Assembly: GCA_963402885.1 (NCBI GenBank)
Contig: OY727099.1
Coordinates: 6,250,001 to 6,314,000, forward strand
DNA from: Antedon bifida
Taxonomy: Eukaryota; Echinodermata; Crinoidea; Comatulida; Antedonidae
Direction: 5' to 3'
Length of the DNA stretch: 64,000 bases
Shown here: in pieces, positions 991 to 59,155 of the stretch
Layout of the letters: each line of letters starts with the position of its first letter
Position numbering within the stretch: position 1 is the stretch's first letter
Position numbers and translations under genes: made by a program
Notes under the pieces: model-generated
Databases searched by the model: none
Told to the model about the DNA's origin: nothing
What the model saw: the letters and a program-made list of their open reading frames with translations, nothing else

Positions 991-1138
991 AAGCTCTGTC
1001 TACACTGACAAAAAAGTGTGATGTGCACAAATATGGTAGTAATATGCCCAAATATGCTAGTGATATGACATCATCATGTTCATATATCGGCACATCACGT
1101 TTTTTGTCACATAATGTTTGATAGTGTTACAGAGCTTT
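991..1138. mobile_element. family A MITE
   Basis: Inverted ends AAAGCTCTGTCTACACT and AGTGTTACAGAGCTTT flank a palindromic core with 'cacaaatatgg', 'cccaaatatg' and 'catgttcatatatcgg'. About 150 bp, no coding capacity. This is the first of about 20 copies of the same family in the window; the CArG-like cores are discussed under findings. Confidence 0.85.
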
Positions 1139-4100
1139 AGACATGACGGTGACACATGCCCGGACACATCAACAACAATGCCAAGTAAAAACAATACACC
1201 TGCTAGAATAAGGCTTATTTTAAAAACATTTCAAGCCTTGCAAGTAAAAAAAAGGAAACATTATTCCAACTTTTAATCGATATTCTGCGACATCTACTTT
1301 AATCATAAGTCACATATGTACATACTAGACAGACATGAACAGATCAATTATTTAAACCTAGTATAAATCAATTAAAATAAAGTGAAAGTTGTCAATAACG
1401 ATTTTTGACAGTAATGATCTGACTGCTTCTATCTCCGTGACAGCTGTATCGATCTTGTATAAGGTAACTGAGTATTATGATACGGTAAATAGCAATTTAG
1501 CCTCTATAATTAAAGAATGTAGTGACTGTAATTACATTTAATGGCCCCTAGTGCATGGATTACAAGCGTGACGCGCACAACCCAATAATGTGCGGGTTTT
1601 TTTTCAGACTCAGAATAGCACAAGACGATTTTCGACAACTCGATTGTTGCACGTTTCGTTGTGTTGGCGTATGAATTTACCATGATTATTTTCGTAATTA
1701 CTGTAATAAATGGTTCAGTTTTCAGTACCTTATTTGGTGTGTGATATTTGTCTCAAACAATAAATTCTAACTGTAAATAGGAAAACACATATACTGACGA
1801 ATACCCGTGTCTTCATCAGTATAGAAACATGATGATGAAGAGATTATGTACGGTACTGTAATATTAGAAATATGAGTAGTAAGTAGGCATATCTTGAAAT
1901 ATTCGATACAGACGAGATCATAAAGCCTGAGGAAGGTTTCATAATGAATATTCACAATGTCATAACCCAATTCATAAACTTCCTTTTTAATAATTCTTTT
2001 GTAAAATTTGTTCTCTAAATACGGTACATTTTTATTTTGAATATTGAATATTATTGTGTTTTATATTCTGTATACTATAGGTCACTCTAGGTATGACATT
2101 ATACAGTAGTAGACTGTTAATGCGCTAGAGAGCCAAACGAATAAAAAACGCATGACGTTCGGTCTCTGTTTCACGCTGTGACGTCATGCTTCCAGTCAAT
2201 CGCGTGCTGAGCGGGCAATTTGGGCACACAGTGTTCGTAAGTTTTCTCATGGCCTGTGCTATTGAAAAATCACACTTTCAGGTAATAGAAAATGCTACAC
2301 AAGATGGCAAAGAGCTATTACACATAGCCTTATATTAAAAATATAAGTTATTATATTGAGTCAGGCGGCGCGCCATATTATGAACAACATTTTAATCAAC
2401 TGCTTACGAATTAGTGGTCTACCCTCATGTTACCTACTGCTTGACAGCAATGCCAACCTGACAACTAGGCCTATTGTGGGCTGATTATCTCACTATTTTT
2501 CACTACTATCATCATCATTATCTTTTACAAATAAATTAAATATAACCGTGACTAATTGCTGCATAAACATGTGTGTTTTGACTAGGTAATTGAAAATATA
2601 GCTATATCAGTGGGTTGTTGGACATTATACTGGACGCACATCTGCTTAACACATGTTAAATTATTTCGGCACCTTCATACCCCAGGCTACCATTATTCTT
2701 AATAGCTTTCATGACAAATACTCCCCCAAAGGTTATTAACAAGTACCCTTTTAATTAACCCTATCCCCGCGGTAAAAGCTTTAAAAGTAAAACACATTAA
2801 TTTTAGTTTTCGAACGTACAGTATCGTGTTGTTGTAGGCCTAATCGTTGAGTTTGTTATTTTGATGGAATAGATTTTAGTATTAGTAGCGGTGCATATTC
2901 AACTTATTATAGATATTAATATATTAACAGGCTTAAAATGGTTTCGTGTATGCATTAATATTATATAACCAATAGGCCTACAGGAAATGTGGGCAGACAG
3001 GCAGGTTAAAGTAGGGAAGTGGTAAACCACTCTTGAAATTTACACCTGTTTAGCATATGGGTTTCTAAAAAAAACAAAACAAAAAAAATCCCAAAACACA
3101 CACAAAAAAAAACGGTATGAGGGCCACTACACGACAACCTATACAAAGTATTTTTTTCTCCCCATGGAGAACAAAAAAAAGAAATCGAGAAGCTTGAAAC
3201 TGGAAAATCGATGAGGACAGGGTCGGTACAGGATAATACATAAATAAATACAATGTTACGGCATGTAGCAGAATAACAAAGAGCAATTATTACATCATCA
3301 TCCACGATTTTAAATAATATGGTTCACACACTGTAAGCCCATTCCATTAAATGTAAAAAGACCGGTGTTATTATGAAATTGAACGCATTAGACCTAAATG
3401 TTTGGCACCTCCAAATGAGATTTTATCAAATGTGAGAAAAATAAATTAGCGACGAAATGGGCTAGAACTAACTTGAAAGAAAAGCAGAAAAAAATCATTT
3501 CAACCCTATATCACAAGGACAATGAACTGTAGTTTCAATATTCCGAATCACATTCCATTTGCACCAACTGGCGACAATTGCCACGGTCACGTGCGTACGC
3601 TGTGCCAAGGTTAAGGAAAAGTTGTAATTGAGAGGCATTCTATTTTCTTTCGGATATTGTCGGCATGTTATTCTTAGCGTATGCCTCGGGGCGTTCCATA
3701 CCGAATATAATAGTAAGCATAGTGACCGCTTATTATAGCACGTTATGGGTGTTACATTGTTGCTAATTTCTACCAAAGGCCCTAAAATGAATAAGCTTTT
3801 ATAACAATGGTTATTATACGCGCGAATTATTAAATAGATTATTGTTAAGACAATCGTGTTATTAGTATGGTAATCAACGACAATACGATAAACGAGTAGG
3901 CCTAGACACTATACCCAACGTTGATTTTATTTTGGTGTGAGAGAGCTTAAGTTTCCACTTTGATTTTTTTTTTCAGCACTTATCTACTACTAAGGCTACA
4001 CAACGTTGCTATTATTATCCTCTTTGATTTTTTCCAGCACTAAGGCTAGAATTTGAATAACCAAATACCCTCAAATCGTAATAATGAATACGATAATGAA

Positions 4101-4379
4101 AATTGGACAGACATTATTTTATTCATCATAGCAAACTGCTGATTTTTGCTTTTGGCATATTGAACCAATGAACTCAGGTGACAAACACAAAATCGTTTAT
4201 CTATATCGAATATTACTTCCTTTAACAATTAACAGTTTCCTAAATCACATAACGTCCAGACAAGTAGTCAATAAATAAAGAGAAAGCCAATGTTAACATG
4301 TCTTTAAACATTAATAAGGGTGGATCTAGGATTTGTCGAAAAGGAGGATACTTAGAACACTGTGTAAACACGTCAGATT

Positions 4380-4585
4380 ACGCCACGGGAAACACTACGT
4401 GTTAAAGCGAACGCGACGCATTGACGCACAATATGCTGTATTGTGCGTACACAAGTGGGAACCGACGACGCAACAGTGCTGCAACATCGCAGGTTTTGAT
4501 TTCACGTAGGCGGGGGCAAACACAATTACCGGAAAGGCATTTTCTTACGTTGCGTAGGTTGCGTCGCTAGTGGGAACCACGCTGA
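4380..4585. mobile_element. family C MITE
   Basis: The right end reads GCGTCGCTAGTGGGAACCAC; the left end (about 4380) is degraded. Internal sequence contains 'aagtgggaaccgacgacgca' and 'cgcaggttttgatttcacg', shared with the copies at 12757 and 62525. GC-rich relative to surroundings, no ORF. Confidence 0.75.
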
Positions 4586-4627
4586 AGGAAGCAAGAGTAT
4601 TATTCGTATGAGCCTCTGCCCCCTCCT

Positions 4628-4765
4628 AAAGCCTGGTTCCCACTAGGACGCAACGCAAGCGAGTTGACCAATGACAAGTGACAGTTCAAATAACGTATCG
4701 CTTGTGATTGGTCAAATCCCTTACGTTGCGTCGCTGTGTTGCGTCTCTAGTGGGAACCAAGCTTT
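4628..4765. mobile_element. family C MITE, short variant
   Basis: Near-perfect inverted ends: AAAGCCTGGTTCCCACTAG on the left and CTAGTGGGAACCAAGCTTT on the right. The core includes 'gttgaccaatgacaagtgac' and its near inverse 'cttgtgattggtca'. The same short variant recurs at 63114-63262. Confidence 0.85.
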
Positions 4766-6559
4766 AGATTCTATGTGTGAGTCGTATGTTCGTTTGAACT
4801 CGTTGGACTTTGGTAACGTGGCAAGGTAAGACGAATATCATAAGAAGGATCTGCTATTGAGACGAGACTTGCAAAACTTAACATTAGTCAACTTTAATAA
4901 AAACATTCTCCACCTAACGGACACAAACTCTATTGCACGCTCTAACCATACGGTACCGTACTCTTCATACCGATACAGTGGGCTAATACAAATCCTAACG
5001 TAACAACGAAAAACAGGAAATTCGGAGTTGTCACATAATATTAAAATAAGAAATGAATAAAATGTAGCTTAATTTAAAAGTGCATGGTAAGCACAGCAAA
5101 CGTCATGGCTAAATTTAAGTACATGTCTATGGTGTCAGGAATGAAAGTGATAGATGCGGATCCTCCCATCAGGGGGCAGCTTCTAATTGTGCGGTATGAA
5201 TTCAACTTTGTGCGATGAACTACAGTTGACACGCCTTGGTGTTTGTAATTACACGAAAAGGAATGATGATCAGGCTGTACTTGTGTGAATGATAATATGC
5301 CAGACATTTTGTTATGAATATATTGAGTTACAGTTTTGGAATTAACTCAGCTAGCGTAACTGATCCCCTGATCCTTTGTGATAAAAAATTCAAAATTACA
5401 ATGGAGATTGTTAGGAGATTGACTAAAACATCGTCTACAAATTGCAGTTGCAAACGTATATTTGATTTAAGTTATCACCTTGATATTTATTAAAATCTTA
5501 ATATTGTTTAAAATTCATATAACCGTAATCACCACGACATAATTCGTAGTCATAGGCAACGAGTGCAGCACATACAATTTGTATTCTTTTTTTTTTATTT
5601 CGGAAATATTTCATCATATCAAAAACTCTACTAAGAAAAAATCGTATCACTTAAAAAACTCTAATGAGCTTGTGAATGTATAACACAATCGGTACGGTAC
5701 TTAATTCTCCACCTATAATATTGTACATTTTGGAGTCAAGAAGCATATTTACCAACACCTGAAGGAAACCAGAATAGTACAACTATTCAACATTCGTTGC
5801 ATAAAACTATAAATATTATCTCAATTTACAAAGAATAATAATAAAATAGAAAATAAATACAGTAGAACCTCTCCGTTGGGACAGCCTGGAACAAACGAGA
5901 GGCAGTACTCTAGTCATGGTGCACCCCTAAGGGGACCCTTTGTTGCGTCCATGTGAATAGATAGAGTGAGAGAGATGAGGTGCCAGTGCACTTTCGACTG
6001 AATTGTACTGTAAGGTACTGAAATCAACAATGATCGATGTATTCGGCCTCCTAAAACACAAACGGTATAATTAAATAACCTAATTAAGTTTTAAAGCAGG
6101 AAAGTATAATAACTCTGCTTTAAGTATGAGAACTACTATAATATGGATATTGTATATTGGTGTTAAAACGCTTAGCACAGGTCTGTCGTCATGAAAGTTA
6201 AAGACATTCTTCCCCAAAAAAGCATCCATGCGATTTTCTATGACGATAAATCAATTTAACCGTTGATGGATTTTGAGGTCGACCTTCGTATTAATAGGAT
6301 ATGAATTATGGTAATACACTATACAGGTAATAACCTGTAACTGACAAGACAGGTCCAAAACGGTTATGATAATAAAGACCCGTATTCATAGTAAATCACC
6401 AATCATCCGTTAACACAATACGATTAATCGACACTATTTCACAATAATAAGGATAACAAAACTCTGCGAAAGGAAATTTGTCAAATTACCATTTAACAGA
6501 ATATAACTATACCAGGGAGCAACTCCCTGACTATACAGGACCACAACGTAATCAAATCC

Positions 6560-6895
6560 AAATTTGCAAAAAGAATTTCATAAATAATATACCTAACAAA
6601 ACGTGGTATTGAAATTTAAGTTTGCAAAATGCATTTATTTATAAATAATAAACCGTGCATAGCGTGGTATTGAAATCAAATTCAAGTTTGCAATATGTAT
6701 TTCATAAATAATATACCGAAGAAAACGTGGTATTGAAATCTACATTTGCAAAATGCATGTTTGATAAAATAAACCGTGCATAACGTGGTATTGAAATCAA
6801 ATTTAAGTTTGCAAAATGTATTTTTATAAATAATATATCGAACATAATGTGGTAATTCAAATTCAAATTCGCAAAATTCATGTTTTCACAAATAA
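6560..6895. repeat. minisatellite, about 60 bp unit, about five copies
   Basis: The motif 'cgtggtattgaaat' recurs at about 6602, 6663, 6726 and 6784, and in diverged form near 6848. Each is followed by 'ttgcaaaatgcattt', 'ataaataata' and 'accg'. Units alternate slightly, suggesting a two-step amplification. No coding potential. Confidence 0.8.
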
Positions 6896-9640: not shown

Positions 9641-9798
9641 AAAGCTCTGTCTACACTATCAAACTACTTTGACAAAAAAAGTGTGATGTGCCCAAATACG
9701 GTAGTGATATTCCCAAATATGGTAGTGATATGACACCATCATGTCCATATGGGCACATCACATTTCTTTGTCATATAAAGTTTGATAGTGTAGACAGT
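9641..9798. mobile_element. family A MITE
   Basis: Starts AAAGCTCTGTCTACACTATC and ends GATAGTGTAGACAG; the last bases of the right end are lost. Core has 'cccaaatatggtagtgatat' and 'gtccatatgggcacatcac'. Confidence 0.85.
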
Positions 9799-14475: not shown

Positions 14476-14638
14476 AAAGCTCTGTCTATACTATCAAACT
14501 AGTTTGACAAAAAAGTGTGATGTCCCCAAATATGGTAGTGATATAACCAAGTATAGTAGTGATATGACATCATCATATCCATATATGGGCACGTCACATT
14601 TTTTGTCACATAAAGTTTGATAGTGTAGAGAGAGCTTA
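14476..14638. mobile_element. family A MITE
   Basis: Starts AAAGCTCTGTCTATACTATC and ends GATAGTGTAGAGAGAGCTT. Core contains 'cccaaatatggtagtgatat' and 'catatccatatatgggcac'. Confidence 0.9.
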
Positions 14639-14684: not shown

Positions 14685-14873
14685 AAGGCCAATTTACACA
14701 GACGAGCGGTACGATAATAATAAAAATATAGAATCTATGTTATTCCTTATGACCATTTACACAAAACGCGGAGAGGACGGGCGGTTACTGCTCAGGATAG
14801 ATCCAGATTTTACGTGGGACAAGCTACGCGGTTTCCGCTTACCGTTGCCATTCGTCTGTGTAAATTGGCCTTT
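14685..14873. mobile_element. family B MITE
   Basis: Ends AAGGCCAATTTACACAGACG and TCGTCTGTGTAAATTGGCCTT are near-perfect inverted repeats; the body includes 'aaaaatatagaatctatgtt'. A 69-codon open frame inside it is a by-product of the inverted repeat. Confidence 0.9.
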
Positions 14874-23968: not shown

Positions 23969-24717
23969 CGGTTGATAATGTCAAAAGAACTTGTACTGTA
24001 TAACGAACTTTGTATAAATTAATATTATCTTCTTAAACAGGCAGGCAACATGATGCAATGTTTTTGAGGTTGGCAGTTTAATAAAACCAACATTGTAAAT
24101 TTTATAGGCAAATAAAAACACATAACAGAAAATGTTTTGTTATTTTGTATTGTTCTAAAGCTCTGTCAAACTAGTTGTGATGTGCCCAAAAATGGAAGCG
24201 ATACGACTTCATCGTGTCCATATGTGCATATCAATTTATTTTTTGTCAAATAAAGTTTGATAGAGTAGACAGAGCTTAAAAATCGAGCTATTGATTTTTC
24301 CACAAACTAAATGTAGGTGACCTAATAGTGTATTAGGATAACTAACCTAATCAATCCTAATACATAATCAGAAATTTCTCTCTGGTTTAAAAAAAAAACT
24401 TGTTTTTAATGCGATACTCAAAACAAAATCAATTAAAGGCAGAACATCAAGTTGACAACAAAACGTTTTATTTTTTACATTTTACATTCAGAGATGATTT
24501 TAATACACAAACTATAATTTATATTTATACAATTACATTTTATATAAACTGTATTCACAAAAATAATCCAAATACGTTCTATATTATTTATACATACACA
24601 TTTTCATTAAATTGTTTGCCAAATCAGTTTCCTTTAATGGCACCTAAAATGTTAAATGTAAGAGGTATTATTATTTTAAACAGATGGAAGGAGGTCTATT
24701 TATTTGAAATTGATTAT
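23969..24717. other. convergent 3' regions of PRDM13 and RSPH3
   Basis: The PRDM13 3' UTR runs from 23969 with AATAAA at 24111, followed almost at once by a family A MITE (24157-24278). The remainder is the AT-rich 3' flank of RSPH3, whose stop codon overlaps an AATAAA on the minus strand (24715-24720). A 147-codon plus-strand open frame across 24400-24843 is antisense to RSPH3 and unsupported. Confidence 0.6.
24157..24278. mobile_element. family A MITE, internally deleted
   Basis: Ends AAAGCTCTGTCAAACTAG and TTTGATAGAGTAGACAGAGC. The core keeps only one 'cccaaaaatgg' block and 'gtccatatgtgcatatc', shorter than other copies. Confidence 0.8.
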
Positions 24718-27700
24718 TTATTCGTCATCATCTGGTTCACCTCCCCCTTCTTCTCCTTCCCCTTCAACTGGTCCTCCTGTGTCTGCTACTGCTTCTGGTT
24801 GACTCTCTGCAGCTGGCTCAGCCTGATCAACTCCCTAATATAAAAGACAAATGTTACAACTAGAATTATTAATTCATTAAAAAATGCTACCTGGCCTTCG
24901 ATATATGGCAGTGGGTTTGTTTAATTGTTTCATCCACAATATAAAACAAATTTAATTTTCTAATTCGAGTTCCTGATCAAAACTATGAGCCTCGGTGTCT
25001 CCATAGCTAGGCTTACTATTTCGTTCTCTCAGCCCATATTTTTTTCCTACTAGTTTTAACATTCCAAAAATATTTTCACTTCTTTTATTTGGATTTTTTT
25101 AAATGAGTGTGAACATACCTCAACTGCATCTGAATTTAATTGTTGATCTAGCAATTCTTGTGCTGCCTGTGCTATTCTCTCTGCATCTCTTTGAGATTCT
25201 TCAAGTTTAAAGTATGCTGCTGCCCTCGCTTTTACAACATCTCTTATAATTGCTATGAAAAAGATAAACATTTAATTAGAGAATTATATCTTGGTTGGTA
25301 GTATACCACTGGGCATATCAAGAGTGTAAAAAAAAACCAAATAAAAATGTGTCTACACTATCAAACTAGTGTGATGTGCCCAAATATGGTAGAGATATGC
25401 CCAAGTATGGTAGTGATATGACATCATCATGTCCATATATGGGCACATCACATTTTTTTTTGTCACATAAAGTTTGATAGTGTAGACAGAGCTTTATAAA
25501 GCAAGTACACTTACCATCTATCATGGTACGTCCTAAAATAGATTTATCAATCTGCTTCTCAACTTGCTCCATAATCCATGGCATAAATCCGTTCTCAACA
25601 TCCCTCTCAACTGGATCATAGAAAAAGCCATTGTCACTAAGTGTACCAAATACAGACGGCACCAAATCGGCAAGGTAACTTTGTGCAAACGCTCTTGCAG
25701 CAATCTTGTCTGCGGTTTCACGCTCTTTCTTAAGAACTTCTCGTTGTTGCTTCATTCTCCTCTCCTAATAAATAAAAAACAAAATATTATAAATGATTTT
25801 TGCATTAATTTAATGTCTGTCTTTCATTAGTCAGTTGGCAGAGGGCAACATTTAACAGAGTAATTAATTCATTTAATTAAAAAAAAACTTTGAAAATGGT
25901 TATATCCATTGTTAGAAGCGTTTATGTTTGACAAAAAAAAGTGTGATTTGCCCAAATATGGTAGTGATATGCTTATATATGGTGGTAATATGATAAGCAA
26001 CCAAGTCATGCCCATCTTGAATATGATGTACAGGGAAGGATCAAGGAGGCTGTTGCCTTTGGGGCACTCACCCTTTTGAAGCTACTGTAAAATGAAATTA
26101 TTTGAAAAATCTTGGATCCTCCCTTGAAATATAATGGGAATAAAATGTTTCATCATCAACAACATTTAGTAAACAAAAAGATGTAGACTTACTTTCTCTT
26201 CTCTGTGTCGTCTCTCTTGCTCCTCAAGACGCTGTGTTTCTACGACCTCTGCATTACGAAGCTCCTCAAACGCTCTCTGTTGAGCTCTGAGGTTAGCAAG
26301 TTCTTCCTCTTCCATAACTTCTAGTAAAGCCTGCTCAACAGTCTTTCCAACTAGCACCTCCAAGATTGGTTTAACTTCTAAATCAAAGTCAAACAACTAG
26401 AAAAGAATAATAAAAATAATTTATACAAGTTTATTATTATTCATCAGAAATTGTTTAATAAACAAATAAAAATTTGTCATAAGCAATATCAAATAAAGTT
26501 ACAGTAAGATAAGTATTTCATATTTTAAACTTACATCTCCATCGTATATTTGTGTAGCAATATCTCTTCCCGTCTTGGCAGGTATGAAAAGTGGGGTAGG
26601 AGGTCGATCGAGGAAGGCGTCAGTTTGGCAGTCAACGTCTGCCTCCTCAACACGGTCACTCAATTCTTCGAGATATAGCTCTGTCTGAACGTCAATATGT
26701 TTGCGGCCTTCTATTGGTTCTGGAGATCGTGTTTTTAACTGATCTCTTGCTCGTTTCCGCGCCACATTTCTCCTCCTAATTTCCTGTTGTCGTTGAATTT
26801 CAATTGGATCAGGTTGTGCTGTCTAAAATAAGAATAGGACATCAATACAAAAACAAAACAACAAAAAAATCCTAATTCAATATGAATTTATCTACTCATT
26901 AAGCTGTCTACACTATCAAATTTTATGAGACAAAAAAATGTGATGTCCCCATATATGTACATGATGATGTCACATCATTCAATACCATATCTGGGCACAT
27001 CACACATTTTTGGTAAAACTAGTTTGATAGTGTAAACAGAGCGTACACCTGAATGGATTCTTTATATTGAAAGGTACACATTTAAACTAGATGGTTTTGG
27101 ACAAGTTGGTTAAGAGTTTATGTCGTATTCTTTAGGTGTTTTTTTTGTGGTATTTCTGTATATAAAATATGATTTCATCAGTTTAAGATGAATATGACTA
27201 ATAACTGAATGGTGTAATATTATAGTGTCTTACTGCTGGCAATGTATGTTGGGCATATGTGTTTCCTCTGACAATTCTTCTGTCGTACATAATATTTCCG
27301 TACAATCCATCTCTATAAAATAAGAAAACAAACATAAAAATATTATACCATTATAGACAGCTGAGCATTATTAATATTATTTATAATTTAATAAGGCTAG
27401 CCTAGCCTAGGCCTACTCTACAGTAATCGGTAGTGTTCTAGCCCTGCCTACCTTAACTTAGACTACAGCTTCTCTACATCTATGCTACGGCCAAAACTTT
27501 CTATCTAAACTAATCATCATAAGCCTAGGCCTAGATGGAAGTTAGGCCTAGGCCTAGACTAAATGGCAATCCGACTAAATTACAATCCTTCTTACTTACC
27601 CAATGTTTTGATCTGCAGCAGCCGCTGCTGCAGGTTCTCTGTATTTTTTCCGCTGTTGCGGTACCGATCGTGGTTGACTGGCAAACGTGTACGTTCCACT

Positions 27701-29446: not shown

Positions 29447-31590
<2,144 letters not shown>

Positions 31591-34547: not shown

Positions 34548-34955
34548 AAAGGCCAATTTACACAGACGAGCGGTAACTGTAAGCGGGAAACCATGTAGCT
34601 TGTCACACACAGAATCTGTATCTTTCCTGAACGGAAACCACCTGTCCGCGCCATGTTTTGTGTAAATGGTCGTACGAAATAACAAACATTCTAAATTTTT
34701 ATTACCGAAACCGCCTGTCTGCGCCATGTTTTGTGTAAATGGTCATAAGAAATAACATACATTCTAAATTTTTATTACCGAAACCGCCTGTCTGCGCCAT
34801 GTTTTGTGTAAATGGTCATAAGAAATAACATACATTCTAAATTTTTATTACCGAAACCGCCTGTCTGCGCCATGTTTTGTGTAAATGGTCATAAGAAATA
34901 ACATACATTCTAAATTTGTATTACCGTTACCGCTTGTCTGTGTAAATTGGCCTTA
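34548..34955. mobile_element. family B MITE with internal 73 bp tandem repeat
   Basis: Ends AAAGGCCAATTTACACAGACG and GTCTGTGTAAATTGGCCTT are inverted repeats. Inside, a 73 bp unit ('accgaaaccgcctgtctgcg', then 'gttttgtgtaaatggt') is repeated, with starts at 34704, 34777 and 34850; a further match to the unit start at 34923 runs into the right end. Copies are almost identical. Overlapping minus-strand open frames of 65-84 codons are by-products of the repeat. Confidence 0.9.
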
Positions 34956-43605: not shown

Positions 43606-43753
43606 AAAGCTCTCTCTACAAACTAGTTTGACAAAAAAGTGCCCAAACATGGTAGTGATATGCTTAAATATGGTAGTGATATGACATCATGTCCATATAT
43701 GGGCACATCACATTTTGTTGTCACATAAAGGTTGATAGTGTAGACAGAGCTTA
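43606..43753. mobile_element. family A MITE
   Basis: Starts AAAGCTCTCTCTACAAACTA and ends GATAGTGTAGACAGAGCTTA. Core 'cccaaacatggtagtgatat', 'ttaaatatggtagtgatatg' and 'gtccatatatgggcacatc'. Confidence 0.9.
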
Positions 43754-47600: not shown

Positions 47601-50600
47601 AACAGCTTTACATCCCATCCAAAAACTAACCAGACTTAATTGTGATGAGAAAGTTTGTGAGAATGAGAAAAATCAGCTCCAACTGAGTAGTATTTAGGAA
47701 GACTTTGTCTGTGTATAGAAAATCATGTATACTAATGTTTGTCCTATGAACAGGCTATATGTACACATGACCAACAGCTTCACATCCTATACGAAAAACT
47801 AACCAGACACATTTCCTGTATTGTTCCTATGCATCTCCTTGAACGATTGGTTCATATCCTCGCTCACTTTAATATCTTGAAACATTCTGGCCAGCTTGTT
47901 TACATAATCGGCTGGCATGCCAACCTCCCTTAACCACTCAACCATGTTCTCTTCTTTCTCACTATCAGCTGACGTGTCTAGGATTAGCCTTCTTGTGAGA
48001 TGTGCCTTGTGATACCGCATAAACACATCTTTGTTCTGTACGTATTTCAGCACCAGTAGCTGAAGAAACAAAAAACACACACAAAAAAACTAGTAAGCCA
48101 TTCTGGAAAAAAACCCTGATTTTATATTCAGAAAGAAAAAAAAAAATTCTAATATAATGAACTTACAACATTCTTTAGTTTGGATTCAATTTCATCGGAG
48201 GTAAGTTTTTTGCTAACTTGGGTCTTCCTTAAAAGCATATCACAGTAGTTAGCGAGTAGTTCTGGACACTTAGACTCGGGTTGTGTTTTACTGCTAACAC
48301 TTAATAAAAAATAAGAAATAAACACTATTAATATCTTGCTCTCTATAAAATGATAAAACAAAAAATGTACAACCTATTCCATTCATCTCCAGAACACGGT
48401 TTAGTAACATAACAACCGACACATTGAGAGAGTCTAAAGCTCTGTCTACACTATCAAACTAGTTTGACAAAAAAAGTGTGATGTGCCCAAATATGGTGGT
48501 GATATGCCCAAATATGGTTGTGATATGACATCATTGTGTTCATATATGGGCACATCATATTTCATAAAGTTCTATAGTGTAGACAGAGCTTAAGAATTGT
48601 TGGTGCTGTACACCTGATTTTGCAAAAGTTTGATTTTGGCAAATTTCTGGGCAGATATGTTCAATAATAATAAGTTATGTTAACATAATACTGGATTAAG
48701 AATAACGTTTCCAAACTTACGTCTTAGTCTTAGTTGGTAATTCTAATCGAAAAACTCTGGTGTCATTTACAACCTGTTTGTAAGCCTGTGAACAATTAAA
48801 CACAATAATTTAACAAAGAATCAACATTCATAACTACTTTTAAGTTCTTTCTACACTATCAAACTAGTTTGACACAAAATGTGTGATGCGCCCAAATATG
48901 GTAGTGATATGCCAAAATATGGTAGTGATATGATATCATCATGTCCATATATGGGCACACCACATTTTTTGGTAACATAAAATTTGATAGTCTAGACAGA
49001 GCTTTACATCTATGAGTATTTGCATATATGTTTGTATTGTGTAAATTTCTAAAGATTTCCAAAAATTAAAATTGTAAAAAGCTATTTATTTTGCAACACC
49101 AAAAGAAAAAAAAGAAAAAAATAGACTTTTATTGACAAATTTTGACTTACTTTATCCCTAGCTGTAAGGAATCGTGGATCATCATTAAATGCTTCTTTCA
49201 CCAGCGCACTAAACCGATTAAATAGCACCAATAGTTGCTCCACATACTTCTCAGAATCCTAAAAGGATACAAATAACTATTGGAATAATAATAATAATAA
49301 TAGTTCTTTCTTATATAGCGCATATAAGCAAGCTCTCAATGCACTGCACATTAATACCCTGGTCAATTTTTGGATCAAACATGTATGGAAACAATACTCC
49401 CATAATAATGTAGCTAGTAATCAGCGCAAAGTTGTGTCTTGATCTATTTCAGTAATTTTGTTTATTTGGTTGGTTGGTAAGTTGGTAAATTATTATAAAA
49501 ATTATTATTATAAAAAGATATAAATAAAAGCATTTCAGCTTGACTTTGGGACAAATTCAATCAACTCTAGTCGAAGCTCGTATTCTGATGGCTCGAGCAG
49601 GGCCTCTAGAAATTAGTTCAATTATGTAAACTCGGAGCAATGTTGTTATGACCTTAAATGCCGACCTGATACCGCACTCTCTGAGACGCACACATTAAGT
49701 TTAGAGTGGATAGAGGTATGTTTAGTTGAAGTGCGTGGAGGGGATTTATTTATAATCGTCATGGCCCGATTTTGCAGTTTCTGTATTTTGTCGCCGTTGT
49801 GCAGGCTGCTTGTACCCCACACAAGGGCACCGTATGAAAACACTCAGAAACGACGTGGTTCAAATTCTGTTGGGGTTTGTAATTTTTGATTTATATTATT
49901 ATTATTATATTTTTTATTTATATTAATATTCGTACAAATATTCTTTGCCAAGCAACAAACAAACAGACAAACACAGACACGCGGTTGAATACATAACCTC
50001 CTTGTTGGAGGTAATAAAAGTGCAGTACGAGTGTCAATAAATTGTCTTATTCTGGCTAAAATGTGAATTTTCTGTGCAAATTTAGAGCTAAAAGCTTTCT
50101 GACATGTGAATGCCAGTGTGCAAGGTAACTTAATTAATTTGCTTACCCGAAAAAAACATGTCAATTTCTTTGAAAAATATATACAAGATATAACATCATT
50201 ACAGTAACAGTAAAGTGTATTCTTAATTGGGAAAACATATTGCCGTTTTTCCTCTTCATTGGAAAGTGTCCACTTAATAGCAATGTCCTAAAGGATGGGT
50301 TCTACTGTATAAAAAGGCGGCTATTTCATTTCATCTTTTATTTCAGAAAAAAATAATAAAGAGTACCAAATTCTCCATAGCTCAAAAGCAAATTAGTGTC
50401 TACATTATTATAAATATAAAGGATATTGCCTAATGTGTTTATATATATACTTATATATATATAAACAGACAGACTATTAACAATAGTAAAAGCCACTATC
50501 TATGTAACCAGATGCAATCACACATATGTTTAACAGTGATTATATTATAAGAGTACAGAATGCATTTTGCACTTACCGTAGTGATGACATCAGCGGCGGC

Positions 50601-53600
50601 TACCATGTCAGCCAGGCCTGAGTGGATAATGTGCTGCTCTAGGTCTTGTAGCATTGGATTTATACCATTGCTTACTCTATCCATTAACCGAAACATTAGG
50701 TTTAATTCTATACAAAGAGTAAACATACAAACAAACAATTAACTGGTGATTATAGAATGAAATAGTCGAAAGTATGTTTTCTATAAAGCTCTGTCTAGAC
50801 TACCAAACATTTTATGTGACAAAAAATGTGATATGCCCATATATGGACACGATGACATCATATCACTACCATATTTGGGCACATCACACTTTTTTTGTCA
50901 AACAAGTTTGTTTGATAGTGTAGACAAGGCTTAAGAACTTGTTGATAATTAGTTTGTAATCTAACTGTAGTTGTGTATTTCTATGTTGATGATAAAAAGA
51001 CCATGTGTACAGTACTTACTGACTGTTTCATTTGTTTTAATCATAGGTGCACACTCTCTGAGAATTTCCTCACGGAATGATGTCACTAACACAAGTACAC
51101 AACATTCTATAAGCTGCAAGTGAACGAAAAGCACTAAATGATCCAAAAAGTTCTAAAACAGGTACAGTTGACTGTGCATGTAAATGTTAAAGATGTGTTG
51201 TCCCCCAAAAACATGAAAAATGAAGGTTAATAGAAAAAGACATTCAATAGGTCATTTTGCTTTTTAAAAAAGTTAATATCTTTCGTAGAAAAAACCTCAT
51301 TGACTTCCAGTCAATATTTTGGTTTAAATTACAGTTTTTTCAGGAAAATATTATTTTTTTCGATCCAATTTTTTGTCACTATTATTTGACATTAAAATGG
51401 CATATTCAAGAAAAAAATGTTTTTTAGGGGGACGATATATCTATATATATCTCGGTTAGGGGGGAATTTTTCTCACTCTCACAGATTTACTCATCTTTAT
51501 CATTTCAAATTAATTAATTAAATTTCAGTATATCACCAGGCAGTTTAGAATTTATTCTGTGCCTGTGATGTTTATATATATAGATATATATCAAATAGAG
51601 TAGAAAACCATGGGACATTTTGTAAAAAAGTGTATGTAGGGTTCCAAGTATAGTCTTGAAGAAGTGTATGGATGCTTAACCAGACAAGGCACTTAAAATC
51701 AATTAATTGGAAAAAAACAACTTACATTTTGTACAGATGCACTACCCTTACATGTTTCTAGGTAACGCAATGCTCTATTTTCTTCTTCCTTTAATTTACA
51801 ATCAGCCTAAGAAAAATCAAAATAGTTCGGTGTCTCTAACCAAAACTCAAAATATTAAACTGTTACTGTTATACATACTGTACTCAGGAATATGATTTGC
51901 TAGGCCATGATATATACATATCTAAAGTATCAACTTACATATTTCATATAGTTCTGAACACCATTGTCCGCAAGGTAAGCGTGAGCATGACTTTTGTAAA
52001 ATGCCTCCGTTGCTTCAATATAAGCACGCTCAAAATTATCTCTATATATTTGCAAACGATCATCCGGATTTGAACATAAATTAACTATGGAAAAATTAGA
52101 AACAAGTTTAAAAAATAAAATAAGTAACTCTCCAATTACTCTCTCAAAATCAGAAAATCTTCCACAAAAACTGGTTTAAAAGGTCTCAAATTACCAGATC
52201 AGAATACCAGATATATTACTGTAGACCAGCTCAATGGTGTATGGGAGAGAGTAGTAGTATATTATTCTCCTATAACTAACAATAAATGTTTATGTTATAT
52301 AGCTCATCAGGGACAGTATCACCATATAAATATAAAATGAATTTGGTACATTCATTGAATAGAACAATCAATCTTTCAACTCTTTAAAATATTCTACCAA
52401 TTCAACTCATAAACATTCATTATTTACTATAAAGCTGTCTACACTATCAAACTACAGTATATGTGACTATGGACATGATGATGTCGTATCACTACCATAT
52501 TTGGGCACATCACACTTTTTTTGTCAAACTAGTTTGATAGTGTAGACAGAGCTTAACATAGAGCATTTGATAAAACTGTTTACCATATGATTCTCTAACT
52601 CCTATGACAAGTTGCTTGTCAAAAGCTTCACCATTTCGTTCAGCAACCACAAGCTTCATAGCGCTACTCTGTAACCTCTGCTTGATTATGGAAAATATAT
52701 GGCAATTCCAGCTATCTAACATTAGCTGAAAACAACAAGAATTTGTAAATGTCATATGGCCAGGTTCATTTCCACTCCGGACCTTAACCAAGCAGATTGT
52801 TATCTAAAGGGTAGCTCTAAAGCTTTGTCTACACTATAAAACTTTATGTGACAAAAAAATGTGATGTGCCCATATATGGACATGATGATGTCATATCAAT
52901 ACCATATTTGGGTATATCACTACCATATTTGGGCATATCACATTCATTTTTTGTTTGGTTTGTGTAGACAGAGATTAAGAATTTTATCTCTTCCTTTTTA
53001 CCAATGCTACCAAAAATGGATTATTTCTCATATCAGCTTGTGTTGAAAAAAATAAAAAGAATACAAAAGAAAATTCCATTGACCTTTTTTTTGATAGTTA
53101 TCAATGCTTTTGTAATAAGATATGTGATATTGTTTAATAAGTTTTTATAATATTCTATATACTGTAGTTTTAAATATTTTTAATCCATTCTATTAGTGCC
53201 AAGTTTCCCCGCTGTCAAATGTGGCTGAAAATAATTTTTTTTAAAGAAATTCAAACCTTGCGAACAATACTGTCCTCTGTCTGTGATGTTTTCTTTTGAG
53301 ATGAACTATTTTTCTTGTTGCTGAGTGATGTTTCCAATTGTCCAAATGGTTTTGGTAGGTAGCCACATTGGGTGAAGAACTTAGCCCACTCCTGAATATA
53401 GGCTTTCAGTAAAGCTGAATCGTCTTGATCTTGTAACACACGCTAGACAAACAACAGTATACTTAACATTATAAATGTATTCATGAATGTGGTTAGTGAT
53501 CCAAGAATAAAGCTCTGTCTACTCTATCAAACTAGTTCGACAAAATATGGTAGTGATATACCCAAATATGATAGTGATATGACATCATCATGTCCATATA

Positions 53601-55309
53601 TGGGCACATCACCTTTTTTTGTCACATAAAGTGTGGTAGTGTAGACATAGCTTAAGATAACAACGAGATGATGCACTGAGATAATAATAAAATTGAATAT
53701 ATAGTGTAGTATAATCAATTTATTAGTATACTGGATTTGTTTCTAAACCTCTGTCTACATTATCAAACTTTATGTGACAAAAAAATGTGATGTGCCCATA
53801 ATTTGTCATATCACTACTATATTTAGGCATATCACACATTTTTTTATGGATTATAGATGACTAATGAATTTTCATGTTTATTTTGTGACGTTTCATAAGG
53901 GGTCCCCAGCTTATGCATGAAAAAAAATATCACAGCCAGGACAACAGTTGTTTATGATATGCCTAACAATTTGTGACAGCAATGATGGGAGATAGAGCAG
54001 CAGAGTAGAACTATCATTACATACTATACAGTCCATACCTGTTTAGCTTGCTTAATAAAATCTATAATATCATGTTTAAGTTCTTCATGAACTTTTTCTG
54101 GTCCCTTATCATCCCATAAACAAACAGAATGCACATCCCTAGATTAAACAATAAAGTAATTAAATTAGTTAATATCATTAGGGCCTAACAATAAATCTTC
54201 TGGTGAACTGCTCAAGGTCAAATTAGGCTGGAAAAATATTTCTATTTTTTTTTTAAATTTGACTACATATAATTTGGAGACAGTTCCGATAACTGTGTTG
54301 GATATTCTTAAATCCTAGAGAAAATTAGTTACATAATAGCTGAAGGGAAAAGAGCCAACTAAACAAAAGTAAGGTGATCATCAAATATGATCTACAATAA
54401 AGAATTTACATTTTAAAGGGCTTAAACAATTTGAGATTGGCCAGATTTGATATTTACTGGCTACTCTTTGTAACCTTCAACTTGTATTGTACTAAAGACT
54501 CTGTAAATAAAAAAAAACCTTGTCTTTAAATAAACTATTGCATTTTAACAATCACAGAAAATGGCCATGAGTTTGTATATTGTGCAATTACCAAATACTT
54601 ACTGTATTATATGCTCATTTTAATGCTCAATTATATTCTAACTTAACTTGTTATTTGATACTAAATTAAGCACAAATAACTAAACGAAATGGGGAATGGA
54701 GTAAATTTGAAATTAAATTATTAGATACTGTAGCTGAAAGAGAAAGTTCAACACATTTCATATGTGAAAGCATTAATATAAATTAATTATTGTTTCTACT
54801 TATCTTACCAAAATAAATCTTGCCATTCAGTTCGTGGCACATTTTGTTGGCGCAACAATTTCAAGACAGTAGGTCTCATTGAATCCCACTTATCTTCAAA
54901 TGTGAGATGCGCCTTGTCCTACAAATGGAGATATATATATATATTATTATTATTCTGGTTATTACTAATCTGTCACTGCTGAGCGACTGGAAACGTACGT
55001 CGCCAAGCGGGACCATACTGCCCAAGTCACTTCCTCACTACATACCTGAGACAAACCTCACTCACACCCGGCCCCTGGACCGACTGGACCTACACGCCAG
55101 CGAGACGCCTAGCCTAGAGCCTACGTTATTAAATTACCGTATACGAATGTTCTGAAATCATATTACAATGTAAAAAGTTACATAATTTAAGCATAAATAT
55201 TACGCACATATATATCACTAGTAGTTGAAAAAAAACAATTCATTATTAATATTTAAAAACATTTCGTAATGATATAAGGAACTTCCTTTACCTTCAACAT
55301 CGTCGCCAT
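44618..55309 (-). CDS. CUL5: CUL5, cullin-5 scaffold of CRL5 ubiquitin ligases
   Basis: Eighteen exons on the minus strand, 778 residues (human 780): 55292-55309, 54809-54918, 54039-54138, 53257-53442, 52584-52725, 51939-52084, 51726-51806, 51020-51113, 50577-50707, 49151-49258, 48721-48785, 48167-48293, 47804-48059, 46995-47167, 46521-46682, 45913-46031, 45435-45558 and 44618-44812. Every junction keeps frame. CUL5-specific stretches include LTFEDKWDSMRP, VCLWDDKG, KLVVAERNGEAFDKQLVIGV, QPESKCPELLANYCDMLL, VGMPADYVNKLARMFQDIKV and the C-terminus WLIEHKYMKRDDNNINTFIY. The lysine in IVKIMKMRKTISNAQL (K722) matches the NEDD8 acceptor. CUL5 binds elongin B/C with SOCS-box receptors at its N-terminus and RBX2 at its C-terminus. 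Introns carry seven family A copies, one family D and one family F element, SINE-like tails and LINE scraps. Confidence 0.97.
44922..45108. mobile_element. family F inverted-repeat element in CUL5 intron 17
   Basis: Ends TAAGGGTCTTTCACACATGT and 'acaggtgtgaaagaccctta' are inverted repeats. The whole 187 bp is nearly palindromic: 'aaatcaaatcgaacataaat' against 'gacgttcgatttgatttt'. Centre 'aacgctccacgcagctatgc'. Confidence 0.9.
45700..45905. repeat. dispersed repeat, copy 1 (CUL5 intron 16)
   Basis: 'tttgaaggtttgcatggcga' and 'aatcaatatactttgatcat', ending near 'gtggtgtaccacaaacttta'. The same blocks are at 60079-60205 in partly different order. Note the internal inverted part 'ttgatcatcttcagg ... 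gatcaaggtatattgatca'. Confidence 0.7.
46240..46445. mobile_element. SINE-like tail plus repeat, CUL5 intron 15
   Basis: 46290-46355 reads 'tgtgtaaagcacctagaatt', then 'gcgctatataagactaccat' and (ATT)n, a common LINE/SINE 3' tail in invertebrates. It is followed by 'gatgagtaggggttacacca', which is repeated in diverged form at 46727 in intron 14. Confidence 0.6.
46720..46800. repeat. second copy of the gatgagtagg repeat, CUL5 intron 14
   Basis: 'gacgagtagggggttacccc' followed by 'gtgtactagctcacacagcc' parallels 46355-46410. Probably the same short element inserted twice. Confidence 0.6.
47281..47816. repeat. threefold 175-180 bp tandem repeat spanning the CUL5 exon 13 donor
   Basis: Copies start at 47281, 47460 and 47639 ('attgtgatgagaaag'). 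Each ends in 'aaaactaaccagac'. In the last copy this is the exon 13 end and its minus-strand 5' splice site (donor after 47804), so the earlier copies carry donor-like duplicates after 47631 and 47452. The body shares 'gactttgtttgtgtagagaa' and 'tgtttgtcctatgaacagg' with the SINE body near 17970. Confidence 0.9.
48436..48593. mobile_element. family A MITE in CUL5 intron 11
   Basis: Starts AAAGCTCTGTCTACACTATC; right end 'tctatagtgtagacagagct'. Core has 'cccaaatatggtggtgatat' twice (second diverged) and 'ttcatatatgggcacatc'. Confidence 0.9.
48842..49005. mobile_element. family A MITE in CUL5 intron 10
   Basis: Starts AAGTTCTTTCTACACTATCA and ends TTTGATAGTCTAGACAGAGC. Core 'cccaaatatggtagtgatat', 'aaaatatgg' and 'gtccatatatgggcacacc'. 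Confidence 0.9.
49295..49375. mobile_element. SINE/LINE tail, reverse orientation, CUL5 intron 9
   Basis: (AAT)n followed by 'agttctttcttatatagcgc' is the reverse complement of a GCGCTATATAAGAA...(ATT)n tail. Confidence 0.6.
49646..49843 (-). pseudogene. LINE reverse transcriptase fragment
   Basis: The minus-strand frame reads MFSYGALVWGTSSLHNGDKI, then QKLQNRAMTIINKSPPRTST. This matches the conserved 'YG..VWG.......KIQKLQNRA.R.I...P..TS' region near the C-terminus of many non-LTR retrotransposon polymerases. Only this short stretch is left, inside CUL5 intron 9. A further repeat lies next to it at 49940-50020 ('cataacctccttgttggagg' with 'aacaaacaaacagacaaac'). Confidence 0.8.
50785..50933. 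mobile_element. family A MITE in CUL5 intron 8
   Basis: Opposite orientation: AAAGCTCTGTCTAGACTACC, 'tgcccatatatggacacgat', 'accatatttgggcacatcac', ending TTTGATAGTGTAGACAAGGC. Confidence 0.9.
51187..51444. mobile_element. family D MITE in CUL5 intron 7
   Basis: Starts 'ttaaagatgtgttgtccccc', contains 'acatgaaaaatgaaggtta' and 'gacattaaaatggcatattc', and ends 'agggggacgatatatct'. Confidence 0.8.
52431..52555. mobile_element. family A MITE, short, CUL5 intron 5
   Basis: AAAGCTGTCTACACTATCAA to TTTGATAGTGTAGACAGAGC, with 'actatggacatgatgatgtc' and 'accatatttgggcacatcac'; internally deleted. Upstream 52345-52430 resembles the 109 bp repeat in VBP1 intron 4. Confidence 0.85.
52819..52977. mobile_element. 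family A MITE in CUL5 intron 4 (proximal)
   Basis: AAAGCTTTGTCTACACTATA to 'gtgtagacagagattaa', with 'cccatatatggacatgatga' and two 'accatatttgggtatatcac' blocks. Confidence 0.85.
53509..53654. mobile_element. family A MITE in CUL5 intron 3 (proximal)
   Basis: AAAGCTCTGTCTACTCTATC to 'gtggtagtgtagacatagct', with 'aaaatatggtagtgatatac' and 'gtccatatatgggcacatca'. Confidence 0.9.
53746..53846. mobile_element. truncated family A MITE in CUL5 intron 3
   Basis: AAACCTCTGTCTACATTATC and 'ttatgtgacaaaaaaatgtg', ending at 'atcacacatttttt' without a right terminus. Confidence 0.8.
54953..55155. other. GC-rich, codon-like block in CUL5 intron 1
   Basis: A 200 bp block much richer in G+C than the intron around it. 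One plus-strand frame is open through it (LSLLSDWKRTSPSGTILPKS and on, to a stop at 55155). It has no recognisable domain and no clear splice sites. It might be a fragment of a transposon or retrocopy. Confidence 0.4.
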
Positions 55310-55509: not shown

Positions 55510-58500
55510 ATGGCCACCGACCAAGAAAGTTCAGTCATGCTTGGTCCACGACCAAATTCAGGAATTCCCCAAGCCGTTTTCGTAGTAAGTTTATATTTCT
55601 TGTTGCATATCAATTTATTCTGTAGTAGCTAATAGATATATTAGTATCAATATGGAGGAGGCCTAGAAATGGAGCGTAGTGGGCATAAACTAGCATCTAG
55701 GCTAGGCCTCAGTTCATTCAGAGTAGTAGATAGCCTAGATAGATAGGCTATACTAGAGGGGTCTGCTGCACATGCTGTGTAGCTAGCTGGCATGTAGACT
55801 AGGGCCTAGCGTCTCTATGTACGTAGGACCGGAGGTAGTTATTTGTCGCCCTGTCTGCATCGATCATGGCCTCATCGTCGGAACGTTTGGCTAGCTGAGT
55901 GGGGGTTCAGTTTATGAAACGAAATTGCTGACACTTTTTTTTGGCTGCTGTGTGAGTGTTGATGACTGTGAGACTGTGTTTTATTTTTAAAAAATGAAAT
56001 ACCAGATTTTGCCACTTATTGTGTGAGTACATTAATAATAATTAATAGATTTATTTAAAGGATTTTCTTTATTTTGTTCTTGTCAGGAAGATGTAGATGA
56101 TTTTATGTCTCAAACTGAGAATGAATCTGTTGACGAAGTACTGCGTCGACTAGATGAACAACATCAGAAATACAAATTTCTAGAATTCAATCTTTTACAA
56201 AAGAAAAGAAGGTATAAATATGTTAAGTTCCATGGTTTTAAAGTTTCCCAAAAGTAAATTAATAATATACTTTTCTGATTATTAATTCAGTGAAAGTTGT
56301 TAAAAATTACAATTTTCAATCTAAAGATCTGTCTACACATGACAAAAAAATGTGATGTTCCCATATGGACATGATGATGTCATATCAGTACCATGTTTGG
56401 GTATATCACTACCATATTTGGGTACATCACACTTTTTTGTCATATAAAGTTTAATAGTGTAGACAGAGCTTTACACTTGCTAACTGTAGTTTGAACCCTG
56501 ACTCCCAGCTGTTGCGCAATATGCTTTCTGTTTCACTGAACACAATTGTTTTTGTTACTCTCAGCAAATGTGAACACTTTGAAATTATCAATCCAAAAAA
56601 AATATTGTTGTCAGGTAAGGAAGTGTACCTTCCGCATTTTGTTATTCCATGAATTTGACAAAATATTTTCATTGTTTTATTGCCGGACTGGAATTGTCAC
56701 TCTTCCTTCACAATGGTTTAATTATGATTAATAAGTTGTTACTAATTTTTTTTTTCCAAATCATTTAATTAAATATTAATGTAAATTTATTTTTGTTAAA
56801 GGTTAAAAACTCAGATGCCAGATATTAAAACAACTTTAGATATTGTGAAATATATGCAGAAGAAAAAGGTACAGTAAGAATAAAATATTATAATAATTAT
56901 GCAAGCAATCATTGGAATTGTGAAAATATATTTAAGTTATAGTTATTTCTAAGATATTTTTCAATATCACACTCATCAAACAATTCATAATTAAATCAAT
57001 AGTCTATTTAGTGCCTAGCTTACCTGGATAAACCAACAATAGCCCTTTCTCTTCGAAGAGCAAGATATAACTCGAAAAGTAGAAATAGTATTGTCCAAGT
57101 ATTAATATATCTATTACAAAAGCAAACCACTGTGCAAGCTCTCTTGAAGACATTTTACTCTATCATGTCTAGAAAAGAAATGATGATGGTGGTTTGTGAG
57201 GAGGCTCTGGCTATACCCTTTGTCGTACTAAATTCACCAATATTCATTACATTATTTTTTCTATACTTTACTTTCTTTACTTAAGGATTCTAGTGATAGT
57301 TTGCCTGCTCAGTTCTTGTTGTCAGATCAAGTGTACGCGAAGGCTACCATCCCACCAAGTGATAAAGTCTGTCTCTGGTTGGGGGTAAGTTAGTTGTGTA
57401 TGCCTGACTGGAGTTAAATAGTAAAATCCTGATTGTCTTATCAGTTCCTTGTTAAATAGAACAGTCAATTTTTCAACTCATGCAAATATTCTCTCCATTC
57501 AACTTATGAATATTCATTATTGGGATACTATTGAATTATGATTGTCTTATCAGTTCCTTGTTAAATAGAACAGTCAATTTTTCAACTTATGCAAATATTC
57601 TCCCCATTCAACTTGTGAATATTCATTATTGGGATACTATTGAATTATGATTGACCTATCAGCTCCTTGTTTAGAACAGTCAATCTTTCAAACTCATGCA
57701 AATATTCGCCCCATTCAAATTCACCTTATGAATATTCATTAATCAGATACTTTTGAATTATATAGGCAAATGTAATGTTGGAGTACTCTTTAGTAGATGC
57801 AGAAACTTTGCTAACTAAAAACCTAGACAATGCTCAAAAGACTTTGAAAGAAGCAGAACAAGATCTGGACTTTCTCAGAGACCAGTACACTACCACTGAA
57901 GTCAGTATCCTTTTTAAAACATGTGTTTATTTAGGTTTGATTACCAAAGTATCAGCATTTGGTAAAATTGCTGCTGCTTTAGATTAAGCTCTGTCTACAC
58001 TATCAAACTGTATGTGACAAAAAAGTGTGATGTGCCCATATATGGACATGATGAGTCATATCACTACCATATTTGGAAATATCACACTTTTTTTTGTCAA
58101 ACTAGTTTGATAGTTTAGACATAGCTTTAATCAGCATTTCAATTTTGAAGAATATATCTCCTGCCTTGTATATAGCTAAAATTTATGGAATTGTGTTCAA
58201 TTCTACCCTAGTAGCAGGCTTGTAACTCATTACTGTTTTCACACCACTCCTCACTAAGCATCAATTAAGACCTAAGCTCTGTGTACACTATCAAACTAGT
58301 TTGACAAAAAAAAAGTGTGATGTGCCCAAATATGGTAGTGATATGACATCATCATGTCCATATTATATGGGCACATCAGATTTTTTTGTCACATAAAATT
58401 TTATAGTGTAGGCAGAGCTTTAGTTAATGAGCATGATATAATCTATTCATCCTGTAATTGGTGAATTAGTTGATGTTGGATGTGTAGAAAACAATTCTTT

Positions 58501-58595
58501 CAATAAAACACTGCTTTCCTTAACATCGTTTTTCTTTAGATATCGCCAGAGTCTATAACTGGAATGTCAAGAAGAACAAAAAACCAGACACATGA
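55510..58595 (+). CDS. VBP1: VBP1, prefoldin subunit 3
   Basis: Six exons: 55510-55584, 56087-56211, 56802-56868, 57286-57384, 57766-57904 and 58540-58595, giving 186 residues in continuous frame (human 197). Family blocks in order: GIPQAVFVEDVDDFMS, LRRLDEQHQKYKFLEFNL, MPDIKTTLDIVKYMQKKK, FLLSDQVYAKATIPPSDKVC, LWLGANVMLEYSL, DLDFLRDQYTTTEVNIARVY and a short basic tail NWNVKKNKK. The two long helices form the coiled-coil arms of an alpha-type prefoldin subunit around a small beta region. Prefoldin is a cytosolic hexamer that captures nascent actin and tubulin and passes them to the TRiC/CCT chaperonin; VBP1 also binds VHL. Introns contain several MITEs, and a MITE array begins 12 bp after the stop. 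Confidence 0.96.
56323..56472. mobile_element. family A MITE in VBP1 intron 2
   Basis: AAAGATCTGTCTACACATGA to 'aatagtgtagacagagcttt', with 'cccatatggacatgatgatg' and 'accatatttgggtacatcac'. Confidence 0.9.
57431..57757. repeat. three tandem 109 bp repeats in VBP1 intron 4
   Basis: Copies begin at 57431, 57540 and 57649 ('gattgtcttatcagttcctt' or a variant). Each contains 'agaacagtcaatttttcaac' and ends 'atgaatattcattattggga'. The last copy abuts the branch/acceptor region of exon 5. A related single copy is at 52345-52430. Confidence 0.9.
57986..58128. mobile_element. family A MITE in VBP1 intron 5
   Basis: AAGCTCTGTCTACACTATCA to TTTGATAGTTTAGACATAGC, with 'cccatatatggacatgatga' and 'accatatttggaaatatcac'. 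Confidence 0.9.
58274..58421. mobile_element. family A MITE in VBP1 intron 5 (second)
   Basis: AAGCTCTGTGTACACTATCA to 'ttatagtgtaggcagagctt', in opposite orientation to the neighbour at 57986. Core 'cccaaatatggtagtgatat'. Confidence 0.9.
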
Positions 58596-58606
58596 TTTAA
58601 CTATCT

Positions 58607-59155
58607 TAAGCTCTGTCTGTACCATCAAACCTTATGTGAAACAAGAATGTGATGTGCCCATATATGGACACGATAATGTCATATCACTACCATATTTGGG
58701 CATATCACACTTTTTTGTCAAACTAATTTGATAGTGTAGGTTTAAGCTCTGTCTACACCATCAAACTTTTTGTGAAAAAAGAATGTGATGTGCCCATATA
58801 TGGACACGATAATGTCATATCACTACCATATTTGGGCATATCACACTTTTTTGTCAAACTAATTTGATAGTGTAGGTTTAAGCTCTGTCTACACCATCAA
58901 ATTTTTTGTGAAAAAAGAATGTGATGTGCCCATATATGGACACAATAATGTCATATCACTACCATATTTAGGCATATCACACTTTTTTGTCAAACTAATT
59001 TGATAGTGTAGGTTTAAGCTCTGTCTACACCATCAAACATTTTGTGAAAAAAGAATGTGATGTGCCAATATATGGACACGATAATGTCATATCACTACCA
59101 TATTTGGGCGTATTACACTTTTTTGTCACTAGTTTGATAGTGTAGACAGAGCTTT
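58607..59155. repeat. head-to-tail array of four family A MITEs after VBP1
   Basis: Units start at 58607, 58744, 58880 and 59016 (period 136-137 bp). Each has AAGCTCTGTCTACACCATC, 'cccatatatggacacgataa' and 'accatatttgggcatatcac'. At the inner joints the right end of one unit is fused to the left end of the next ('gatagtgtaggtttaagctc'). Only the last unit has the full right end GTGTAGACAGAGCTTT. Confidence 0.95.

Follow-up and report, generated by a model that had tools for sequence, protein, structure and literature searches.

The window analysed here is a 64,000-nucleotide stretch of the crinoid Antedon bifida (assembly GCA_963402885.1, contig OY727099.1, positions 6,250,001 to 6,314,000). 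It holds genes matching cullin-5 (CUL5), RSPH3 and a PRDM-type protein, together with copies of one family of miniature inverted-repeat transposable elements (MITEs). Most of the CArG boxes in the window, CC(A/T)6GG, the consensus site of serum response factor (SRF), lie in these copies. The family spreads CArG boxes far outside the window as well, and in inserted copies the boxes decay like the rest of the element.

The terminal inverted repeat (TIR) of the element starts with AGCTCTGTC. The TIR word has 32 matches in the window at up to three mismatches, against 0.01 expected. A search profile made from nine copies located 23 copies at 20 places, which occupy 3,222 bp (5.0% of the window). 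In the window alignment, complete dispersed copies are about 118-166 bp long, in agreement with the original prediction of about 20 inverted-repeat copies of 125-170 bp. The copies are listed below with the start positions of their intact CArG boxes and, where recognised, the target-site duplication (TSD).

992..1136, plus strand: two-unit copy without an intact CArG box
9643..9797, plus strand: two-unit copy, last bases of the right end lost; one intact CArG box (9713)
14478..14636, plus strand: copy with TSD TAA/TAA; two intact CArG boxes (14526, 14579)
24159..24276, plus strand: one-unit copy with TSD TAA/TAA; one intact CArG box (24186)
25345..25493, plus strand: copy 19 bp beyond an RSPH3 exon end; two intact CArG boxes (25380, 25433)
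25928..26015, plus strand: partial copy flanked by two RSPH3 exons; one intact CArG box (25952)
26902..27042, minus strand: copy 82 bp from an RSPH3 exon, without an intact CArG box
31008..31173, minus strand: copy with three 21-bp units and TSD TTA/TTA; two intact CArG boxes (31101, 31122)
43608..43751, plus strand: copy with TSD TAA/TAA; one intact CArG box (43693)
48438..48590, plus strand: copy in a CUL5 intron, TSD TAA/TAA; two intact CArG boxes (48487, 48508); hairpin folding z -6.8
48843..49003, plus strand: copy in the same CUL5 intron as the preceding one, TSD TTA/TTA; two intact CArG boxes (48892, 48945)
50787..50931, minus strand: copy in a CUL5 intron, TSD TAA/TAA; two intact CArG boxes (50837, 50869)
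52433..52553, minus strand: copy in a CUL5 intron, 31 bp from an exon end, TSD TAA/TAA; one intact CArG box (52495)
52821..52975, minus strand: copy in a CUL5 intron, TSD TAA/TAA; three intact CArG boxes (52870, 52902, 52923)
53511..53652, plus strand: copy in a CUL5 intron, TSD TAA/TAA; one intact CArG box (53594)
53747..53850, minus strand: partial copy in the same CUL5 intron as the preceding one, without an intact CArG box
56325..56470, minus strand: copy with one intact CArG box (56412)
57987..58126, minus strand: copy with TSD TTA/TTA; two intact CArG boxes (58036, 58067)
58275..58419, plus strand: copy with one intact CArG box (58326)
58609..59153, minus strand: head-to-tail array of four copies with a period of 136 bp (58606-59145 when delimited as a tandem repeat), outer flanks TTA/TTA; six intact CArG boxes (58658, 58690, 58794, 58826, 58930, 59098)

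In the last entry, a MITE has become a short satellite array of four copies that are 95% alike, with the same end bases missing at all three inner junctions.

Open reading frames (ORFs) of the minus strand, joined as exons, match CUL5 best (1,070 bits; runner-up family cullin-1, 272 bits) and, at a second gene, RSPH3 (250 bits), matches that indicate an animal host possessing cilia genes. A PRDM-type gene with a PR domain and zinc fingers lies at 20-24 kb of the window. None of the MITE places overlaps any of the 16 mapped exon segments. The copies had been described as lying mostly in introns, which can be confirmed for 8 of the 20 places (seven between mapped CUL5 exons and one between mapped RSPH3 exons); two further places lie close to an RSPH3 exon, at distances of 19 and 82 bp, and the other ten are without gene assignment. 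The copies at 25345-25493 (RSPH3) and 52433-52553 (CUL5) follow mapped exon ends at distances of 19 and 31 bp, near splice donors. A small exon-like ORF at 31070-31345 found no match in the identity searches.

Alignment to a common model gives the layout of a copy as left arm, one to three inner 21-bp units, a 22-bp middle and right arm. The two 59-bp arms form an imperfect inverted repeat (49/59 positions identical), which supports the earlier description of a single MITE-type family, and hairpin folding of one copy (48438..48590) reaches the z score given above. The inner 21-bp unit of one arm resembles GTGATRTGCCCAAATATGGTA and is repeated in tandem: among 120 aligned copies, one unit is present in 47, two in 70 and three in 3. 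A GCTTAAATATGG form of this unit occurs in 9/112 copies. At its inner end the left arm has the 10-bp word CCAAATATGG and the right arm, read inwards, has CCATATATGG. Since the CArG boxes of both arms are these inner 10 bp, they are the same part of one inverted repeat. Further boxes arise where the inner 21 bp of the left arm are repeated in tandem, and the CArG sites of the family are therefore one ancestral word, repeated. The 161-bp copy consensus is without CpG, where its base composition predicts 5.2 (CpG observed/expected for the window is 0.77).

The window contains 36 CArG boxes, with 4.96 expected, so that chance clustering is ruled out. Thirty-one of these lie inside MITE copies, as had been proposed from the exact SRF-consensus words in the element cores, and the five outside are at chance level. 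Across the copies, 31 of 59 CArG slots are still intact. The two or three sites predicted for a full copy are found in 10 of the 23 copies (nine with two, one with three); another ten have one and three have none. Binding sites of possible partner factors had also been suggested. The CRE-like (cAMP response element-like) word TGACATCA is indeed part of the middle of the element, with 11 of its 15 window occurrences inside copies, but it is one base off the true CRE, TGACGTCA, which has 0/6 window occurrences inside copies. MEF2-type sites (YTAWWWWTAR) do not belong to the element, with just 1/46 window occurrences inside copies, and for AP-1 sites the count is 1/8.

The family is not confined to this region. 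In the genome (315.6 Mb, 27 contigs), a 20-bp TIR word has 27,867 matches at up to one mismatch, and the reversed-word control has 0. Ten 10-kb stretches at round coordinates, used as a random 100 kb, contain nine copies, six of them in one stretch, which gives a rough figure of the order of 28,000 copies genome-wide. There are 65,912 occurrences of CC(A/T)6GG, compared with 17,178 of the reversed pattern. The word CCAAATATGG is found 23,761 times on either strand (reversed word, 450) and CCATATATGG 12,736 times (reversed word, 312), and together these two family words make up 36,497 of the genome's CArG boxes (55.4%). Among the listed places, the two words stand at the spacings typical of the family, 32 bp in 15 pairs and 53 bp in 10 pairs. 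Inside MITE copies lie 12 of the 20 CArG boxes of the random 100 kb, so the spread of CArG boxes claimed for this region extends far outside it. The exact family words had 0 matches in the viral-contig and genome-contig collections searched, and no occurrence of them was found in the literature. A literature search for a MITE with CArG or SRF sites returned no such case by title among the matches listed.

Decay of the CArG box was measured in two sets of copies. For the window, the tandem array was counted once (three of its four units dropped), leaving 20 copies. The larger set comprises 112 copies, after 120 genome copies had been aligned and eight with a score of 60 or less left out. The fetched copies represent 88 of 100 listed TIR places on one chromosome, each with an exact left TIR; because they were chosen by this TIR, its columns do not enter the comparison. 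In the window, bases off the consensus number 28/506 in CArG boxes and 142/2,269 elsewhere (Fisher p 0.61), and private changes 20/506 and 95/2,269. CArG-destroying changes number 24 against 28.3 expected (ratio 0.85, 0.54-1.26), and when the CArG mask is slid along the element a value as low is obtained in 30% of placements.

The 112 copies behave in the same way. Bases off the consensus are 179/2,751 (6.5%) in CArG boxes and 395/6,321 (6.2%) in the other interior positions. At the C and G positions needed by SRF, 120/1,097 bases are changed, compared with 238/2,561 (p 0.13), a difference towards more loss. There are 153 CArG-destroying changes where 155.6 are expected (0.76-1.20 by bootstrap over copies). 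CArG windows are intact in 136/298 cases (45.6%), and 41 other windows with the same G+C in 47.0%. Of these 41, 30 reach the second-unit box and 32 the right-arm box, which places both boxes below the middle of the distribution. C to T changes are common in the CC of the second unit (20 and 17 of 74 at two positions), and 21/112 copies are without any intact box. As the CArG word and the remainder of the element decay equally fast, there is no sign of its retention for gene control, and SRF-driven conservation is rejected for both sets. Decay of the cores at the rate of their flanks was what the original prediction itself had named as speaking against regulatory use, and on the sequence side that suggestion fails. 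In most copies, host use of the box is probably absent.

The flanks of the element point to its mode of insertion. For 14/17 window copies, the TWA trinucleotides (W, A or T) on the two sides have the same central base (shuffles, p 0.006), two of the copies being scored by this base, with another flank base changed. Among the 88 fetched copies, 67 have a recognised right end and the 21 without one were left out; of the 83 window and fetched copies with both ends recognised, 25 with a non-TWA flank were left out. Identical TWA trinucleotides stand on both sides in 40 of the resulting 58 pairs, against 27.7 expected (p 0.00045). A target preference is present at exactly three bases outside the TWA (chi-squared 29, 42 and 112; further out, at most 8.7; 156 flank ends). 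The preferred bases at -6, -5 and -4 from the element are G/A, T and C, that is R, T, C before it and the mirrored order after it. C precedes TWA in 47/95 cases and G follows it in 28/61.

According to two papers (PMC2836001, PMC6327408), PIF/Harbinger elements make a 3-bp duplication and have a target preference that spans the TSD and the 3 bp to either side of it. The TWA duplications and the 9-bp target preference thus suggest PIF/Harbinger-type mobilisation. The same genome has 150 scored matches to DDE_Tnp_4, a Harbinger-type transposase. Near-identical matches of this type are clustered on contig C8 at about 21.5-22.2 Mb, most of them with one internal stop codon. The same papers describe Tourist-like PIF/Harbinger MITEs (mPing, mPIF), which resemble the Antedon family in being short and non-coding, with inverted ends, a TTA/TAA 3-bp duplication, a target preference of TSD plus 3 bp per side and similar subterminal sequences. 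In contrast, the Antedon MITE has a TIR beginning AGC, not GG, and 59-bp arms with 21-bp tandem units; it resides in an animal genome, with no autonomous partner found in the transposase flanks and with one asymmetric class of its own flanks.

Other repeats are also present in the window. Tandem arrays occur at 34634-34940 (73-bp unit, 96% alike), 47278-47808 (179 bp), 57430-57761 (109 bp) and 6550-6896 (124 bp), and sequence matching the region of the 73-bp unit is also dispersed at 14718, 21705 and 13048. An ORF at 61959-62537 encodes a zinc-binding domain of reverse transcriptases (zf-RVT), a remnant of a LINE-type (long interspersed nuclear element) retroelement.

The explanation we prefer (probability about 0.76) is that a non-autonomous MITE, one arm of which had a CArG word by chance, was spread by copying and moved in trans by PIF/Harbinger-type proteins into TWA targets. 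The word would have stood at the inner end of one ancestral arm. Inverted symmetry would have doubled it, tandem repeats multiplied it and transposition carried it through the genome, and after insertion the boxes would be lost at the element's own neutral rate. The chance of a CArG box in a 59-bp stretch is about 0.2-0.4% (0.21% of 20,000 arm shuffles; 235/59,559 windows outside copies), and since known factor motifs are numerous, an exact match to one of them within an arm would be unremarkable. The possibility first raised alongside regulatory use, coincidence from AT-rich symmetry, is nearly correct: a long inverted repeat has the box at its inner end and duplicates it through its symmetry. 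The 21-bp subterminal repeat may itself serve transposition, probably bound by the element's own DNA-binding protein.

Several observations weigh against this explanation. The first-unit box is fairly intact (only 7 of the 41 other windows reach it), and when tandem second units are omitted, CArG-destroying changes number 89 against 109.0 expected (ratio 0.82, 0.66-1.00). These comparisons exclude a strong constraint on the box; a mild one, at the source or in the host, may exist and is compatible with the 0.82 ratio. Among the 58 TWA pairs, 18 are unequal, 16 of them TAA...TTA and two TTA...TAA. This asymmetry is not explained by a plain TWA duplication, nor by mutation or exchange between copies. 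Of the transposase-match flanks inspected, 0/20 downstream (1.5 kb) and 0/10 upstream (0.9 kb) end in the MITE TIR; one flank holds an ordinary MITE copy without its right end. Lastly, the TIR starts with AGC, and seven plant PIF/Harbinger elements tabulated in PMC6327408 have a TIR beginning with GG, although GG is no universal criterion for PIF/Harbinger. PIF/Harbinger-type proteins most likely move the family in trans, an assignment that is provisional because of the TAA...TTA pairs, the AGC start and the lack of the TIR at transposase flanks.

The TAA...TTA flanks (16/58) fit equally well with TA duplications around an element that starts with AA, as would be made if a Tc1/mariner-like transposase moved the family (two-base TA duplication, ends AAGCTC). 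We consider this unlikely. T precedes TA in 28 of the 31 copies with NTA directly before AGCT, a bias not foreseen under a TA duplication; the 40/58 pairs with the same trinucleotide, TTA or TAA, on either side and a preference consisting of the TSD plus 3 bp also argue against it. A reading with about even odds is that the 21-bp CArG repeat is kept by selection for transposition, with SRF irrelevant and the element's own protein binding it, so that source elements would be constrained and not inserted copies. This is compatible with our preferred explanation and partly contained in it. The unit is subterminal in both arms and repeated one to three times, and in zebrafish, according to PMC9710019, the Myb-like protein of Harbinger3_DR recognises a 9-bp subterminal motif. 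On account of this subterminal place and that protein, the 21-bp unit may be a site for an element protein. The subterminal motif of Harbinger3_DR and Harbinger3N_DR serves here as a putative model of the 21-bp unit. Against such selection, the flanks of the unit vary at least as much as the box (7.7% and 6.5%).

The third reading, that copies are dispersed SRF-responsive elements and those near genes are kept via SRF binding with MEF2 or CREB as partners, appears very improbable from the decay comparisons. Both family words are exact CArG boxes that account for 55% of those in the genome, and the 0.82 ratio obtained without tandem second units goes in its direction. There is also a precedent, described in PMC6914339: Arabidopsis RC/Helitrons distribute CArG-like motifs that are bound by PHERES1. 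As in Antedon, a transposon consensus carries a CArG-type motif and spreads it. The Arabidopsis case differs in transposon class and host, and binding by chromatin immunoprecipitation and effects on genes are reported there; in Antedon the boxes show no extra conservation. Neither the 20 window copies nor the 112 copies show excess conservation over base-matched sites, 21 of the latter have no intact box, and the copies are without a true CRE and hold a single one of the 46 MEF2-type sites.

Transposons commonly receive credit for the dispersal of transcription-factor sites. By the word counts given above, a MITE burst has more than doubled the CArG boxes of an animal genome. One family supplies about half of them, yet the sampled copies show no retention, a warning that motif enrichment in transposon copies is no evidence of regulation. 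It is conceivable, if improbable, that the multiplied sites act jointly even if no single copy is under selection, either by titrating SRF like a sink or by providing a standing pool of raw material, a gene-near minority of which has been recruited. If so, this lineage would be a natural experiment in which a genome was flooded with the sites of one transcription factor. Measurement of occupancy would make it a clean test of how an animal responds when an SRF-independent element multiplies such sites.

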